A DNA stretch of 59,978 nucleotides from an uncultured Saprospiraceae bacterium (GTDB taxonomy: Bacteria; Bacteroidota; Bacteroidia; Chitinophagales; Saprospiraceae), in NCBI GenBank assembly GCA_937944095.1, contig CALEAC010000052.1, positions 1 through 59,978 of the forward strand, read 5' to 3'. The position numbers and the translations under genes were made by a program. The number at the start of each line of letters is the position of its first letter. Within the stretch, counting starts at the first letter, position 1. This document shows, piece by piece, positions 34,684 through 49,190 of the stretch. The notes below the pieces were generated by a model. That model did not search any database and was not told the DNA's origin. It worked only from the letters and a program-made list of their open reading frames with translations.

Positions 34684-34754
34684 GGAAGGACTCTAGGTAA
34701 GTAAAGATAGAATTAGTCATAGGGATTAATGTCACCTGTGCCTGATTAATGCCT

Positions 34755-34762
34755 TACCTTTG
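34755..34762 (+). promoter_or_regulatory. -7 element of the xerD operon (possibly leaderless)
   Basis: TACCTTTG matches TAnnTTTG and ends 5 nt before the ATG at 34768, so transcription would begin at or beside the start codon. No TTG at the expected spacing. Confidence 0.45.
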
Positions 34763-34767
34763 TAATA

Positions 34768-35682
34768 ATGGATTGGAAGTCAGCTATAATTGGATTCAAG
34801 GCATATTTGGTACTCGAGAGGTCTCTATCTGAGAATTCTATAGACGCCTATCTTAGGGATGTCCGTAAACTAGTAGAATACCTAGAGCTGACCGAAAAAG
34901 AAATAGGGCCTCTAGCTCTCGGTAGAATTGAATTGGAAGCATTTATCAAATATATCTACGATCTAGGGCTAGGCGACCGCACACAAGCTCGGATGCTATC
35001 AGGGATTAGGGCATTCTACAGGTACTTATTGGTCGAGAATCTATTAGATGAGGACCCTACGGAGTTATTCGAAGGACCTAAATTGAAGCGAAAGATCCCA
35101 GATGTACTGACCTATGATGAGATCACGACAATGTTGGAAGCGATAGACTTAAGTACAGATCAAGGGCACAGGAACAGAGCCATGTTAGAAACGCTGTATG
35201 CCTGTGGACTCCGAGTAAGTGAACTGACAGAGTTAAAGTTGTCTAACTTCTTTTCTGACGAAGAGTATATCAAAGTGGTCGGCAAAGGCAATAAGGAACG
35301 CATCGTTCCTATGGGTCGAGCTGCGATCAAGCAGAACACCTACTACCTAGAAAACTACAGAAATCAACTCCCGATTAAGCCCGGTTACGAAGACCACTTC
35401 TATCTTAATCGACGCGGCAGATCTCTATCAAGAGTAATGGTATTCATGCTGATTAAGGCGTTAGCTGCCAGAGTTGGTATCCAGAAGAATGTTAGCCCGC
35501 ACACTTTTCGGCATTCCTTTGCAACGCATCTGGTAGAGGGTGGCGCAGACTTAAGAGCGGTACAGGATATGTTAGGTCATCGTTCGATTACGACAACAGA
35601 AATATATACACATATAGATACACGGTATCTGAGAACGACAATCATGGAATGTCACCCTAGAAATAGAAAGCAAGTCTTATAA
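34768..35682 (+). CDS. xerD: Site-specific tyrosine recombinase XerD
   Basis: Recombinase of 304 residues that resolves chromosome dimers at dif. The N-terminal SAM-like core-binding domain covers about 1-100, and the catalytic domain has all active-site residues: R149 in CGLRVSEL, K174, H245 and R248 in HTFRHSFATHL, H271 in MLGHRS, and Y280 in EIYTH. Length and motifs fit XerC/XerD rather than phage integrases; XerD is chosen over XerC by overall resemblance. No dif-like site was seen. It heads a five-gene operon with the Ig-like lipoprotein (15 bp downstream), lptB and two mini-lipoproteins. Confidence 0.88.
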   Translation: MDWKSAIIGFKAYLVLERSLSENSIDAYLRDVRKLVEYLELTEKEIGPLALGRIELEAFIKYIYDLGLGDRTQARMLSGIRAFYRYLLVENLLDEDPTELFEGPKLKRKIPDVLTYDEITTMLEAIDLSTDQGHRNRAMLETLYACGLRVSELTELKLSNFFSDEEYIKVVGKGNKERIVPMGRAAIKQNTYYLENYRNQLPIKPGYEDHFYLNRRGRSLSRVMVFMLIKALAARVGIQKNVSPHTFRHSFATHLVEGGADLRAVQDMLGHRSITTTEIYTHIDTRYLRTTIMECHPRNRKQVL

Positions 35683-35697
35683 CCTAAGATGTAGATC

Positions 35698-37302
35698 ATG
35701 TCGAGGAAAAACTATATAAATTATCTACAGCTTGTGATTCTAGGCTTATTATCCTCTTGTGCACAAGTATCGATGCCAAATGGTGGCGCAAAGGACGAAG
35801 AACCGCCACGTATGCTCACGGCGTTATCGACGCCTAATGAACAGACCCAATTCGTAAAGCAAGTCATAGAGTTAGAATTCGATGAGTGGATAAAATTATC
35901 TAATCCAAGCAAGGAAATCTTTATTTCGCCACCATTGGATTATCCGTTGGCTGTCGACTCTAGAGGAAAGAAAGTGTCGATAAAGTTTCATGAGAATGAA
36001 ATACTTAAGGAAAACACAACCTATCAGATTAATCTAGGTCAGTCAGTCAGAGACCTAACAGAAGGAAATAAATTCGATGAGTTTGTCTTTTTGTTTTCTA
36101 CTGGTGATAAGATCGACGAATTGTCACTTAGTGGCAGGGTTGTAGATGGCGAGGATGGAAAAGGTGTAGGAGATATCTTAGTCTTATTACATGACAATCC
36201 ATGTGACACCTGCTTCGTCAGTGGACGACCTCTATATGTGACTAGGACTGAGAAGACGGGTGAATATAGTTTTCAGAACCTACGTGCAGATACTTTTCAG
36301 ATTCATGCATTGTTGGATGAGAATGTCAGCTATAATTATGACCTTCCGTCAGAGAAGGTAGCATTTTACGATAGCTTGGTCATATTATCAGATACGATGC
36401 AGCAGGACATAGAGTTATTGCTGTTCGACGAAGAGGATCCACTAGAGTTATTAGAAACACAACATAAGACACGTGGAAAGACCCTGTTGTGGTTCAGCCG
36501 ATCGCCAGATTCAGTACAGGTGACCTTGTATAATCAGCATAAGAGATCTTACCAGGAAGTAGTAGAGGACTCGTTGTTAATATGGCATGATGATCTTGTT
36601 TCTGATTCTACTATATTACATATTGCTTATGAAGGTGAAATGGATACTGTAAATGTTAGGAGTGGTAAGGAGAATTATGGACAGAGAGTGTTACAGACAG
36701 CTGATAAGCGTCTGGAGTTATTAGCAACTGATACAGTCTTTGTAGAATTCAACCATCCTCTGCTAGATGTCGATACGTCGAGGGTATCGATAAAAGACAC
36801 AACACTGGTGGAAAGGATTATAGACTATGGTGTAGAAGGTCGAAAGCTGTGGATTAATGCCGTCTTAGAGCCTGCGGTAAGCTATGACTTAGTGTTAGAT
36901 TCAGCTGCAGTATATGATTGGTATTCTAATGAAAATCAGTCTAGACAGATCATTAAGATTGAGACCATTGATCCGTCTTCATTAGGGCAGATTAGCATGA
37001 GTTTCTCTAATACCAATGGACTGATATACCTGATGGAACTCTATCATGAAAATGACCTGGTGGAACGATTTTCTGTGTCTACAGACTTAATAATTAGTCG
37101 TGATAAGATGTTATCGGGGCTATATAGTCTCAAAATTGTAGCAGACACCGATGCTAATGGCAGATGGTCATCTGGCAGTCTGAGCAAAAAGAAATATCCA
37201 GAACTGAGAAGAGAACTTAACTTTGAGGAATTAAAAGCAGGATGGGAACTGGAAGTGCCTATCGACATACAAGAACTATTTTATGGAACTAAGAGCAACT
37301 GA
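35698..37302 (+). CDS. Ig-like domain lipoprotein of Bacteroidota
   Basis: Cell-surface or periplasmic lipoprotein of 534 residues. The signal peptide ends at lipobox LLSSC, followed by the family's proline/glycine-rich mature start ([15 protein letters not shown]). An Ig-like (Big_5-type) domain comes next, about 45-140 (LEFDEWIKL and [18 protein letters not shown]), then a carnitine/carboxypeptidase-like beta domain ([19 protein letters not shown]) and a C-terminal part of beta strands. Function unknown. It is the second gene of the xerD operon and its last 20 bp overlap the start of lptB. Confidence 0.8.
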
Positions 37303-38023
37303 CCTAGTAAAGAAATATGGCCTGAGGACAGTTGTGGACAAGGTCAACATCACTGTCAGACCTGGAGAGATTGTGGGTTTGTTAGGTCCCAATGGCGCAG
37401 GCAAGACGTCTACTTTTTACATGGTTGTCGGGTTTGTTAGACCAGATTCTGGATCTGTATATATAGATGATGAGAATCTGACAAACTTACCGATGTATAA
37501 GCGCGCTAGAAAAGGTATTGGTTATCTACCCCAAGAAGCTTCTGTGTTCAGGAAACTCTCAGTAGAAGATAACATCATGGCCATCTTAGAGATGATGAAG
37601 ATGACATCAGCAGAGCGAAAAGAACGCCTAGAAGAACTCATAGATGAATTCGGTCTGCACAAGGTCAGGAAAAATATAGCGGATTCTGTTTCTGGTGGAG
37701 AGAGAAGGCGGACAGAGATAGCGAGAGCGCTTGCTTCATCACCTAGCTTTATACTACTAGATGAACCTTTTGCTGGGATAGATCCTATAGCCGTAGAGGA
37801 TATCCAAGTGATAGTTGCTCGACTGAGACAAAAAAACATAGGTATCTTGATAACCGATCATAATGTACAGGAAACTCTGACAATTACGGATAGAGCCTAT
37901 CTGATGTTCGAAGGCAAGATATTAATGTCAGGGACTGCAGAAGAACTAGCTAATAATGAGACAGTCAGACGGGTATATCTAGGTCAGAATTTTGAACTTA
38001 AAAAGAAGCACATTAACGTATGA
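37283..38023 (+). CDS. lptB: LPS export ABC transporter ATPase LptB
   Basis: ATPase of 246 residues that powers the LptBFG complex moving lipopolysaccharide from the inner membrane outward. Walker [11 protein letters not shown]-loop [15 protein letters not shown] (the LptB-typical YLPQEAS motif), signature [15 protein letters not shown] and Walker [14 protein letters not shown] are intact; the H-loop is [10 protein letters not shown]. The other Lpt genes are not in the window. Its ATG lies inside the end of the Ig-like lipoprotein gene (20-bp overlap) and its stop overlaps the first mini-lipoprotein gene in ATGA. Confidence 0.95.
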
Positions 38024-38277
38024 GTTTTCGGTTGCTTAAGGTTAGCCTAGTTCTTTTAGTGTCATTAGCAAGCACTAGTTGCGGAGAGTATGAGTTACTC
38101 GAACAACAAAACCAAGCTAAGCGATCAGCGGATTCACTATTCCGATTGCATAAAGATTCACTCAGAGGCGTTGCAGATAGTTTTTGTCTCCAGACTTATG
38201 ATAGTCTATATACGGTCACGCTGGATTCTCTGAGGGCTATATACAAGCGCGATATAGAAAAATTGATTGGGCAATGA
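38020..38277 (+). CDS. Mini-lipoprotein A with DS(L/F) repeats
   Basis: Lipoprotein of 85 residues, family not recognised. A signal peptide ends at C21 (SLASTSC). The mature part is a predicted single helix in which the motif DS(L/F) recurs at residues 38, 46, 53, 61 and 69, spacings 8, 7, 8 and 8, as in a coiled coil. One free cysteine (C56) lies mid-helix. It is coupled to lptB by a 4-bp ATGA overlap and to the next gene in the same way, so all three are made together. Role inferred only from context: something at the envelope tied to LPS export. Confidence 0.6.
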
Positions 38278-38564
38278 GAATGAGTTTCCTTATTCTTTCT
38301 CTTTTTTTGTGCTGCTCGTGTCAGCCACATACACTCGATCAGCAAGCCCTTATAGATGATTTCTATGCTGCTAAGTGCCAAGAATTATTTGCCGAGAAGC
38401 GTGGCGAATGCAAGGAGAACATTAGAGAGGTTGCTAAGGCACACCTCGATTCTATCGTGCATCAATTGCTCAAAGCTGATGCGATGGATACCTTGGTATT
38501 TCCACCTAAGCCAGTTAGGCCGGTGGCGCCAGAGCATATCATCGGGACAGTTAAGAAATTTTGA
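38274..38564 (+). CDS. Mini-lipoprotein B, Cys-rich
   Basis: Lipoprotein of 96 residues, family not recognised. A very short signal peptide ends in a cysteine cluster (FLCCSC, C16 the likely lipidated residue). The mature part is helical (LIDDFYAAKCQELFAEKRGECKENIREVAKAHLDSI) with two more cysteines about 12 residues apart that could form a disulfide, then a proline-rich tail (PPKPVRPVAPEHI). It is coupled to mini-lipoprotein A by a 4-bp ATGA overlap; an ATG at 38280 is an alternative start. It closes the xerD-lptB operon. Confidence 0.58.
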   Translation: MRMSFLILSLFLCCSCQPHTLDQQALIDDFYAAKCQELFAEKRGECKENIREVAKAHLDSIVHQLLKADAMDTLVFPPKPVRPVAPEHIIGTVKKF

Positions 38565-38590
38565 TTTAGCTCAGTCATATTTTGTTCAGC

Positions 38591-39760
38591 TTACTCACCT
38601 CTCTTTTTATTTACCTGATCCATATAAGCTGCGCGCATTAGCTTATCGCTACCGAATCGTTTTCTGATGTGATCCTTGCGTTCCATCAGTGATATGGCTT
38701 TGGCTGTATCATCGAAGATGTTAATCTGGTAGTTCCCATTGACGAGGCCACTGAATTTGACACCGACGAGCCTAATGAGTTGTCTACGTTCGTTAAGCGT
38801 ATCGAAGATTTCGCAGATATGACGTGTGAGAACACTCTCATTTGCAGTATAGGGTATGCGACGTTGTTTTGTATAAGTATTGAAGTCGGCATGGCGGAGC
38901 TTGACAGTAACACAGGAGGTTAGTTTGTCCTTCTTCCTAAGGTCAAAAGCCAGTTCGTCCACCATCTTAAGAATCATGTTCTTAATGAACCGGAGATTAA
39001 GGGTATCTTCTGTAAAGGTTCTTTCTTTAGACATTGATTTCTGTTCTGTATATGGGATAACGGGTGATAGATCTATACCATTAGCTTTCTCCCAGAGCTT
39101 CCTACCATTATTGCCAAATTCTCTCTCCAGCAGGTTCATGGGAATCTGACTTAAGACCTTGATCTGACGGACACCCATGAAGCTAAGTTTCTTATACGTC
39201 TGCTTACCGATGCCTGGTATTTTCTTCACCGAGAGTGGTGAGAGGAACGCTTTTTCAGTCCCTTTCGGTATTTCCTTAGCGCCATTAGGCTTTGATTCTC
39301 CTGTACCGACCTTAGATACCAGCTTGTTAGCGGAAAGCCCGAAAGAGATAGGAAGACCGGTTTCTTTAATAATCCGATGTCGTAATTCCTTGGACCAAGT
39401 AAAGCAGCCGAAGTGCTTATCCATCCCAGTCAAATCCAGGTAGAATTCATCTATAGACGACTTTTCATAGACAGGTGCATCTTCTGCGATAACTTCAGTA
39501 ACCAGTCTAGAGTATTGGGAATAGCTATCCATATCGCCTCTTAATACGATGGCATCGGGACATAGATTGAGCGCCATCTTGACTGGCATAGCACTATGTA
39601 CACCGAATCGTCTGGCCTCATAACTACATGAAGCAACCACGCCACGGCCGCTAGTGCCACCTATGATAAGTGGCTTACCTAGGAACTGACTATTCTTCAG
39701 ACACTCTACCGAGACGAAGAAGGAATCGAGGTCCATATGTAATACTGCACGATCGAACAA
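38591..39760 (-). CDS. dinB: DNA polymerase IV (Y family)
   Basis: Translesion polymerase of 389 residues. Catalytic carboxylates are D10 in HMDLDSFF and the DE pair in SSIDEFYLDLTGM; the fingers segment YEARRFGVHSAMP, the thumb helix-hairpin-helix PLSVKKIPGIGKQTYKKL and a C-terminal little-finger domain are present. It starts at TTG (39758-39760): no in-frame ATG exists before an upstream stop at 39770-39772, and the next ATG would remove the first beta strand. A very good promoter lies 57 nt upstream. The C-terminus ends in a basic tail without a clear clamp-binding motif. Confidence 0.93.
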   Translation of the reverse strand: MFDRAVLHMDLDSFFVSVECLKNSQFLGKPLIIGGTSGRGVVASCSYEARRFGVHSAMPVKMALNLCPDAIVLRGDMDSYSQYSRLVTEVIAEDAPVYEKSSIDEFYLDLTGMDKHFGCFTWSKELRHRIIKETGLPISFGLSANKLVSKVGTGESKPNGAKEIPKGTEKAFLSPLSVKKIPGIGKQTYKKLSFMGVRQIKVLSQIPMNLLEREFGNNGRKLWEKANGIDLSPVIPYTEQKSMSKERTFTEDTLNLRFIKNMILKMVDELAFDLRKKDKLTSCVTVKLRHADFNTYTKQRRIPYTANESVLTRHICEIFDTLNERRQLIRLVGVKFSGLVNGNYQINIFDDTAKAISLMERKDHIRKRFGSDKLMRAAYMDQVNKKRGE

Positions 39761-47754: not shown

Positions 47755-48444
47755 ATGTTCGGATATATGATAATACTTGGCGTATTCACGCTACTCGGTA
47801 TGGTCATCGGTGGGAAACTTAAATCCACTTTCAATAAATATAGTCAGTACGAGCTCAGAAGTGGCAAGACTGGTAAGGAGGTCGCAGAGGATATGCTAGC
47901 ACATTATGGTATCCATGATGTCAAAGTTGTACCTGGTCAGGGATCACTAACGGATCACTACAATCCTCAGACTAAGACTATAGCGCTAAGCGAGCCGGTA
48001 TACGCTAGCCGAAGCATTTCAGCTGCTGCTGTTGCCGCTCACGAATGCGGTCATGCAGTACAGCACGCCACGGCCTATCCGATGCTTGCGATGCGTTCCA
48101 CTTTAGTACCTGTTGTTAATTTTTCAGCTAAGGCTCAGCAATTTGTCATGATGGGTATGATGATGGGTATTGGTGCCGGATTTGTCAATCCATCTCTAAT
48201 GTTGGCAATCTTAGCAGGCACCTTTGGTGTGACGGCTTTATTCAGTTTAATTACCTTACCTGTGGAGTTCGATGCATCTAAGAGAGCCTTAGTTTGGCTG
48301 GATGAATCTGGTGTGACACAAGGCGCAGAATATGATGGAGCCAAGGATGCTTTGTGGTGGGCTGCTATGACTTATGTAAGTAGTGCACTGATGGCTCTGG
48401 CGATGTTCTTGTTCTTCCTTTTGAGGTTCATGGGCCAAGACTAG
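47755..48444 (+). CDS. YugP-type zinc metallopeptidase, copy 1
   Basis: Membrane metallopeptidase of 229 residues (YugP/DUF2227-like neutral zinc metallopeptidase). An N-terminal helix (about 4-19) is followed by a soluble part with the zinc motif H96-E97-x-x-H100 in AAHECGHAVQHA and the preceding DHYNPQTKTIALSEPVY, then further helices and a late glutamate ligand candidate in LPVEFDASKRAL. Substrates are unknown. It lies 18 bp after serS and 35 bp before a close paralogue. Confidence 0.82.
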   Translation: MFGYMIILGVFTLLGMVIGGKLKSTFNKYSQYELRSGKTGKEVAEDMLAHYGIHDVKVVPGQGSLTDHYNPQTKTIALSEPVYASRSISAAAVAAHECGHAVQHATAYPMLAMRSTLVPVVNFSAKAQQFVMMGMMMGIGAGFVNPSLMLAILAGTFGVTALFSLITLPVEFDASKRALVWLDESGVTQGAEYDGAKDALWWAAMTYVSSALMALAMFLFFLLRFMGQD

Positions 48445-48479: not shown

Positions 48480-49190
48480 TTGCTAGGGTACTTAGCCATA
48501 ATCGGGCTATCTACACTTGTAGGTATGGTCATTAGTGGTAGACTGAAATCTACTTTCCGTAAGTATGGACAGATTGCTATGACCAGCGGTCTAACTGGAA
48601 AAGAAGTGGCGCTCAAGATGCTAGAGCATTATGGCGTAACCGATGTTAAGGTTATTCCTAGGAAAGGAGCGCTCACAGACCACTATAATCCCCTAACTAA
48701 GACGATTGCTCTGAGCGAACCAGTCTACAGTAGTATCAGCATCTCAGCTGCCGCTGTCGCGGCGCACGAATGTGGTCATGCTATACAGCATGCGAGTAAT
48801 TATAAAGCGATGACACTGAGAACTATATTAGTCCCATTCATCCAATTCTCTACTCGAATACAACAATTTCTATTCTTTGGTATCATATTAGGAATTGGGT
48901 CAGAGATAATGACCAGTAAGCTAGGTCTGATGATACTTACTGCCACCTTTGGCGCAACAGCTTTATTTGCTCTTGTGACCTTACCTGTAGAGTTTGATGC
49001 ATCTCGACGTGCACTAGCCTGGTTAGATGACACAGATCTAGCCATGGATGGTATAGAATATGATGGCGCTAAGCAGGGTCTGAAGTGGGCAGCCATGACC
49101 TATATAGCTAATGCGCTAAGTGCACTAGTTATTTTCTTATATTTCGGCTGGCAATTGTTAACTAACAGGAGGGCCAAAGAGTTAGCCTAA
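48480..49190 (+). CDS. YugP-type zinc metallopeptidase, copy 2
   Basis: Paralogue of the preceding gene (236 residues), aligned without gaps over the first 100 residues; zinc motif H96-E97-x-x-H100 is intact in the same place, as are DHYNPLTKTIALSEPVY and LPVEFDASRRALAWLDD. It starts at TTG (48480): the first residues MLGYLAIIGLSTLVGM match copy 1 from residue 1, so the non-ATG start is well supported. A tandem duplication with both active sites kept suggests either a heteromer or split substrate roles. frr follows after 36 bp. Confidence 0.82.
   Translation: MLGYLAIIGLSTLVGMVISGRLKSTFRKYGQIAMTSGLTGKEVALKMLEHYGVTDVKVIPRKGALTDHYNPLTKTIALSEPVYSSISISAAAVAAHECGHAIQHASNYKAMTLRTILVPFIQFSTRIQQFLFFGIILGIGSEIMTSKLGLMILTATFGATALFALVTLPVEFDASRRALAWLDDTDLAMDGIEYDGAKQGLKWAAMTYIANALSALVIFLYFGWQLLTNRRAKELA

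Follow-up and report, generated by a model that had tools for sequence, protein, structure and literature searches.

Two small lipoproteins encoded behind lptB in Saprospiraceae as a candidate two-chain periplasmic stalk

The window analysed here is a 59,978-nucleotide stretch of an uncultured Saprospiraceae bacterium (contig CALEAC010000052.1 of assembly GCA_937944095.1, 2.78 Mb and 83% complete), in which lptB, the gene of the lipopolysaccharide (LPS) export ATPase, is followed by the overlapping genes of two small predicted lipoproteins, hereafter named A and B. We give about an even chance to the proposal that A and B form a membrane-anchored two-chain stalk in the periplasm, probably linked through cysteines, which is co-expressed with lptB in Saprospiraceae and is not a core part of the Lpt machinery. 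The pairing of A with B is the most constant feature of the system, more constant than the link to lptB.

Both genes were sought with profiles seeded with 40 A-B pairs, chosen by position and pattern from the same 64 lptB loci of the family that are reported on here; Saprospiraceae is labelled f1, the other families of the order are numbered (f3, f8, f12, f16), and absence in a genome means no match with these profiles at E 0.001. A was recognized at 54 and B at 52 of the 64 loci, both being missing at ten, so that 14 A and 12 B are independent finds beyond the seed pairs. Genome-wide at the same threshold, A is present in 186 of 199 family genomes (107 of 112 genera) and B in 182 of 199 (105 of 112 genera). 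The proportion of non-synonymous differences (pN) is lower than that of synonymous ones (pS) for both proteins in 8/8 genome pairs tested, and the ratio of the corresponding rates, dN/dS, is 0.12 for A and B alike in the pair L012/L014; dS is saturated in nearly all other comparisons, where the pS/pN contrast alone counts. The excess of synonymous change that a preliminary description of this DNA had named as a check is therefore present, both frames being conserved as protein. By this conservation, A and B are true genes. As both are short and devoid of database families, they might be taken for chance open reading frames (ORFs) or decayed genes, an idea left with practically no probability by their presence in at least 105 of 112 genera, by pN < pS and by the invariant residues described below. 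Neither protein has a Pfam or NCBIfam match near the cut-off; a Pfam scan of 52 A and 51 B members returned isolated single-member matches only, at E 0.002 or weaker, and a profile search of the PDB with A and B gave nothing below E 0.12. A literature search of titles and abstract openings found no publication on the pair.

The anatomy given in the preliminary description was recovered: A has 85 amino acids and D-S-L/F at residues 38, 46, 53, 61 and 69, and B has 96 amino acids, a lipobox C13-C14-S15-C16 and two further cysteines, C35 and C46, the latter conserved in 52/52 B and the former not conserved. The conserved periplasmic cysteine of each protein opens a C-x12-D-S/T motif found in all 54 A and all 52 B. 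Beyond this core the two differ, as at least three prolines follow the core D-S in every B and none of the 54 A has two or more. A lipobox-like cysteine was recognized in 39 of the 52 B by script and in 41 by eye. AlphaFold2 models of the single chains consist of one helix at residues 24-84 for A (mean predicted local distance difference test score, pLDDT, 93.7) and of a helix at 23-72 followed by an extended tail for B (mean pLDDT 89.6). Alignment of the two profiles with hhalign places Cys on Cys and D-S on D-S (probability 95.7, E 1.1e-8, a score raised by the signal peptide included in the aligned stretch), and A and B look like distant paralogues. The lipidated and core cysteines are separated by 34-36 residues in 40 of 51 A and by 29-34 residues in 35 of 39 B; given such similar spacings, a parallel pair anchored in one membrane could bring both core cysteines near the same level.

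A periodic hydrophobic stripe runs along both helices. Relative to the invariant cysteine, the D-S/T pairs of the 54 A members are found at -18 in 50, -10 in 20, -3 in 42, +5 in 15 and +13 in 54 of them. The D-S recurrence had been likened to that of a coiled coil; the idea of a coil and the spacing across the family hold, but a heptad does not, since the period of about 7.75 residues points to a right-handed arrangement. This recurrence is the same signal as the hydrophobic stripe, whose period averages 3.87 residues per turn in A and 3.89 in B over the family (bootstrap 3.86-3.89 and 3.87-3.90). An equally strong peak was reached by 4 of 2000 column shuffles for A and by 7 of 2000 for B, the amplitude at 3.5 residues per turn is 0.20-0.21 as compared with 0.87-0.96 at the peak, and blanking of the Cys, Asp and Ser columns leaves the peak in place. 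Taken sequence by sequence, the peak lies above 3.63 in 50/54 A and 51/52 B of the family and in 12/12 A and 9/11 B of other families, where the average periods are 3.89 (A, n=12) and 3.85 (B, n=11). As the stripe covers some 45 residues, which limits resolution, the period is best read as clearly above 3.7. For reference, the available part of PMC4786415 gives about 3.63 residues per turn for a straight helix, 3.5 for left-handed heptad coils and 3.75 for right-handed pentadecads, with an expected upper limit near 3.9 and, as the most extreme example named, 3.8 in YadA. On this scale, a period of 3.87-3.89 marks a coiled coil, as predicted from sequence, that is strongly right-handed. The invariant cysteine is 28-30 degrees away from the stripe centre in both proteins and could be placed where contact with a partner is possible.

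Two known systems share this predicted geometry in part. The stalks of the YadA type are likewise built by right-handed helix packing, reaching up to 3.8 residues per turn locally (PMC4786415, available part); they belong, however, to trimeric autotransporters, whereas A and B, as predicted lipoproteins, have a cysteine in their hydrophobic face, and the period of their sequences is slightly higher. The peripheral stalks of rotary ATPases (b/b' and E/G heterodimers) resemble the proposed pair in that two helical subunits associate in a right-handed coiled coil (PMC6131620, available part). A further likeness is that the b/b' subunits cross the membrane, according to the same source. Among the differences, A and B are predicted lipoproteins, no sequence relation between these stalks and A or B was found in Pfam or the PDB, and the A/B period exceeds the hendecad (3.67) and pentadecad (3.75) values listed in the accessible portion of PMC4786415.

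The tandem order of the genes is a further property of the system. Among the matches listed, B comes immediately after A in 125 of 136 genomes, as it does in 12 of the 15 genomes in which A lies away from lptB and B is listed. Where starts were chosen by script, the exact 4-nucleotide overlap of A with B occurs at 32 of 52 loci and an overlap of any length at 50 of 52. Across the order, the B profile at E 0.01 matches 55 of 149 genomes; 19 of these belong to the family and 36 do not, and in many of the latter the match covers the signal peptide only. Fifteen out-of-family loci were fetched, and 13 of them (families f3, f12 and f16) encode A-like and B-like lipoproteins in tandem; the remaining two hold B only (L163, f12) and a weak A-like match only (L166, f8). 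The match lies on a different contig from lptB in G200, G209, G227 and G236. The neighbours of the pair in these families vary: a heptosyltransferase-like gene is near it at 4 of 5 f3 loci (by eye, one scanned and assigned to PF01075), a CNNM/CorC gene is beside it at 4 of 6 f12 loci (one scanned), and purH is beside it at one f16 locus (scanned). At six loci (L156, L157, L162, L164, L168, L169) small Cys-rich lipoproteins, epidermal growth factor (EGF)-like by eye, are encoded beside the pair on the opposite strand; the one that was scanned had no Pfam match at 1e-5. In cross-family alignments, C21, D38, C56, D69 and S70 of A are invariant (25 rows), as is C46 of B (24 rows), in which D59, P80 and P86 are conserved at 90% or more. 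The A-like protein of G230 has no core Cys.

Farther away the signal fades. The A profile matches 119 of 296 genomes of the phylum at E 0.01, outside the order by weak or partial matches only, and class-wide at E 0.001 B matches 41 and A 68 of 295 genomes, many over the signal peptide only. Nineteen class-wide loci were viewed (L283 and L292 being repeats of L266 and L260), and one of them, in a genome of the same class outside the order (G676, locus L258, ORF 1144-1818), carries a fusion: a single 213-residue lipoprotein in which a long acidic linker joins two C-x12-D-S cores and a basic tail of PGRK repeats follows. The first core matches A (3e-14) and B (1e-13) alike, and the second matches B (3e-13) better than A (2e-7). 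Such fusions usually mean that the separate counterparts work together, and this one, along with the tandem order, lends indirect support to the pairing of the two chains. The fusion aside, no core C-x12-D-S was seen in the class-wide loci whose matching frame was printed, the frames of L281 and L289 not being among them. As a side observation, L260-L266, L269 and L270, from other Bacteroidota, encode one or two small Ala-rich lipoproteins with DSIAAAE-like D-S repeats, basic or Pro-rich tails and no core Cys, which perhaps form a wider class of helical lipoproteins. Their likeness to A and B lies in the lipoprotein signal, the D-S repeats, the sometimes tandem arrangement and the tail; the absence of such a core Cys from those printed is the difference, and they match the profiles weakly, in part through the signal peptide.

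A number of observations weigh against a two-chain stalk. The single-chain models are lone helices, and one invariant cysteine in each protein fits homodimers as well as a heterodimer. A stands without an adjoining B in 11 of 136 genomes among the matches listed and at two lptB loci of the family (L020 and L094), and the two genes are found at separate loci in some of these genomes, such as G077, G102, G146 and G167, a contig break being possible in others. No lipobox was found in B at 11 of 52 loci on inspection by eye, or at 13 according to the script; the N-terminus there resembles an uncleaved or ordinary signal, and B may be a transmembrane or a cleaved protein in these cases. Three f16 B-like proteins that were printed display C-x9-D-S in place of C-x12-D-S. 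Lastly, the correlation of the A and B distances beyond the LptB distances over 49 loci (0/999 permutations) speaks for the pair, but with a partial r of 0.22 it is weak.

The lone helices and the unpaired copies of A would suit another reading, in which A and B are abundant helical spacers of the envelope, each forming its own oligomer, and the tandem is a duplication seldom broken. The model for such a spacer is Braun's lipoprotein (Lpp), a short, lipid-anchored, nearly all-helical periplasmic protein which forms a heptad coil with 3.5 residues per turn and whose C-terminal Lys is linked to the cell wall. A resembles it in being predicted as a lipid-anchored protein that is all-helical when mature, B being a helix with a tail and lipobox-free at the loci mentioned above; the differences are the period of 3.87-3.89, which is not that of a heptad, and the C-terminal Lys, present in just 15 of 54 A and 11 of 52 B. 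Separate spacers are also favoured by the D-S-rich helical lipoproteins of other Bacteroidota, which have no core Cys and are in part encoded in tandem. The conservation of the A-B order across several families, the natural fusion and the confinement of the Pro-rich tail to B speak instead of a division of labour, and we regard independent spacers as quite unlikely.

The link to lptB was assessed from placement counts among the matches listed; the weakest matches are left out of these, which may overstate the linkage, and contig breaks in fragmented assemblies act the opposite way by lowering it. Within this scope, 108 of 127 genomes have the start of A behind lptB at a distance of no more than 1 kb. 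The lptB and A frames overlap at 40 of 54 loci, by exactly 4 nucleotides at 10 of them (script-chosen starts). No listed lptB is found within 1 kb of A in the other 19 of the 127 genomes, perhaps because of contig breaks in a few; in G072 both are on one contig, A at a greater distance. At 34 lptB loci belonging to other families of the order, A and B are both absent at E 0.001, and neither was detected at this threshold in four family genomes that are 99% complete and possess lptB (G021, G057, G127 and G152). Among 80 titled lptB loci, A was found at 24 and B at 22, Portibacter lacus (L208) being one of the carriers; neither was found at the Pedobacter, Mucilaginibacter, Chitinophaga and two Neolewinella loci of this set. 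The expectation that the pair stays next to lptB thus holds for most of Saprospiraceae among the matches listed and fails in the other families. A relative of the immunoglobulin (Ig)-like gene is likewise upstream of lptB at 11 of 20 family loci (L080-L099) and at none of 20 loci of other families (L060-L079), as judged by tblastn with one query protein, so that this Big_5 gene is also a family-level neighbour of lptB. As a side observation, G178 possesses two lptB copies (L003 and G178:C87, 83% and 78% identical to that of the window), each with its own A and B behind.

It had been suggested, from a presumed stoichiometric co-synthesis with the LPS-export ATPase, that A and B take part in LPS transport or its control. 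What stands of this is that they are conserved, mostly predicted lipoproteins whose genes follow lptB in the majority of family members; a dedicated role is not supported, in view of the 19 of 127 genomes (among the matches listed) with A elsewhere, of the 0/34 loci of other families and of the four near-complete genomes that have no detectable pair. The corresponding alternative casts A and B as regulators or accessory components of the Saprospiraceae Lpt bridge, which might, for instance, steady LptB2FG-LptC or, in the manner of LptM in E. coli, help LptD mature. The position behind lptB and the overlapping frames speak for it, as do the counts at L080-L099, where A is found at 16 of 20 loci (one displaced by an insert) and the Ig-like gene at 11 of 20, and the heptosyltransferase-like gene near the pair in f3. 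LptM (YifL) is a precedent elsewhere, being a small lipoprotein connected with LPS export and with disulfides, with a redox-linked role in the Lpt system, and reported as conserved in Enterobacteriaceae (PMC10567701, available part); the likeness is that of small lipoproteins, and contact of A or B with LptD or LptE is shown by nothing in this analysis. The available part of a paper on TamL (PMC12045153) makes no mention of Lpt. On the other side, the A genes away from lptB, the pair-free loci and genomes and the separate encoding of LptF/G (two PF03739 proteins) and LptE (one PF04390 protein) elsewhere in the genome of the window tell against this alternative, which we hold to be possible but unlikely. 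As regards the Lpt core itself, A and B matched no family profile and are not kept wherever lptB is kept; the pair found away from lptB and the four 99% complete members devoid of it argue against a core part. The tie to LPS export is peculiar to one family and may reflect nothing but shared expression; the pair may steady the LPS bridge or simply be made alongside it.

A MoxR gene was considered as the principal associate of the pair and rejected. It is found behind B, at most 6 kb away, in 52 of 125 genomes and, in the 102 genomes where all four genes could be placed, the pair has lptB only as neighbour in 51, both in 39, MoxR only in 4 and neither in 8 (all among the matches listed), which makes MoxR a weaker neighbour than lptB. 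Where A is away from lptB it precedes a MoxR gene in G018, G078, G088 and G168, and it follows a sensor kinase and a response regulator in G088 (scanned) and G112 (by eye). The latter placement, the kinase-like gene ahead of a lone B in G102, the pyridine nucleotide-disulphide oxidoreductase ahead of the pair in G078 (scanned) and G168 (by eye) and the invariant cysteine of both proteins would fit a periplasmic thiol sensor, in which the two cysteines together would signal redox or folding stress of the envelope to a kinase. Such neighbours are few and not constant, and no thioredoxin-like Pfam domain is present in A or B; little probability is assigned to a sensor.

The preferred reading, a two-chain stalk, can be briefly outlined as follows. 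A and B, as distant paralogues, would act as one unit. Their helices, anchored at the N-termini and lying in parallel, would wrap into a strongly right-handed coiled coil and form a stiff stalk in the periplasm, and their single invariant cysteines are probably bonded, which would lock the rod. The Pro-rich tail of B would be free to contact the cell wall or a putative envelope partner. In Saprospiraceae the pair would be made from the lptB gene row, presumably on a single transcript, and its supply would be tied to LPS export and outer-membrane growth. The pair would be an envelope structural or accessory module rather than a core Lpt subunit. In a bolder version, which we consider improbable, no natural coiled coil described so far would be as strongly right-handed as that of A and B (about 3.87-3.89, with the limit near 3.9); the pair would serve as a disulfide-locked heterodimeric strut in the periplasm, would provide in this part of Bacteroidota the spacing that Lpp provides in enterobacteria and, in Saprospiraceae, its synthesis would keep step with that of the LPS bridge. 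A coil truly as right-handed as the sequence says would widen the range known for such structures. Less is known about the anchoring and spacing of the outer membrane in Bacteroidota than in E. coli, and the A-B pair is a testable candidate in this respect. It offers several handles: each partner has an invariant cysteine, the genes form a two-gene unit, a fusion occurs in nature, and Portibacter lacus is a named strain with the pair behind its lptB.

The features of the locus are collected in Table 1. The overlaps along the gene row amount to 20 bp between the Ig-like lipoprotein gene and lptB and to 4 nucleotides at both the lptB/A and A/B junctions. They agree with the preliminary description, the 20-bp overlap being read from the sequence and the stop and start codons sharing ATGA at 38020-38023 (lptB and A) and 38274-38277 (A and B).

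Table 1. Coordinates of the gene row and of the conserved elements of A and B
Feature	Position in window	Strand	Evidence
Ig-like (Big_5) lipoprotein gene	35698..37302	+	PF13205, E 1.6e-12; upstream member of the gene row
lptB, LPS-export ATPase	37283..38023	+	TIGR04406, E 2e-110
Protein A, predicted 85-residue helical lipoprotein	38020..38277	+	Profile match in 186/199 family genomes; AlphaFold2 helix
A Cys21, predicted lipidation site	38080..38082	+	Invariant in the 52-row and 25-row cross-family alignments
A Cys56, periplasmic Cys of C-x12-D-S	38185..38187	+	54/54; invariant across families
A Asp69-Ser70 of C-x12-D-S	38224..38229	+	D69 invariant and S70 at least 90% in the family; both invariant across families
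Protein B, predicted 96-residue helical lipoprotein with Pro-rich tail	38274..38564	+	Match in 182/199 family genomes; AlphaFold2
B Cys16, predicted lipidation site	38319..38321	+	Sequence; lipobox-like Cys in 39/52 B (script)
B Cys46, periplasmic Cys of C-x12-D-S	38409..38411	+	52/52; invariant in the 24-row cross-family alignment
B Asp59-Ser60 of C-x12-D-S	38448..38453	+	D59 invariant and S60 at least 90% (family alignment)
B Pro-rich tail PPKPVRPVAPE	38502..38534	+	At least 3 Pro after the core D-S in 52/52 B

When the genome of the window was searched with A, the only match was A itself; Rfam gave no match within the window, and promoter and terminator scans of 34700-38900 yielded signals at the level of shuffles. 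Elsewhere in the window, two adjoining ORFs at 47755-48444 and 48480-49190 (229 and 236 amino acids) are alike at their start and both include a membrane stretch and the motifs GKEVAxxML and LTDHYNP; by eye, they look like a tandem duplication.

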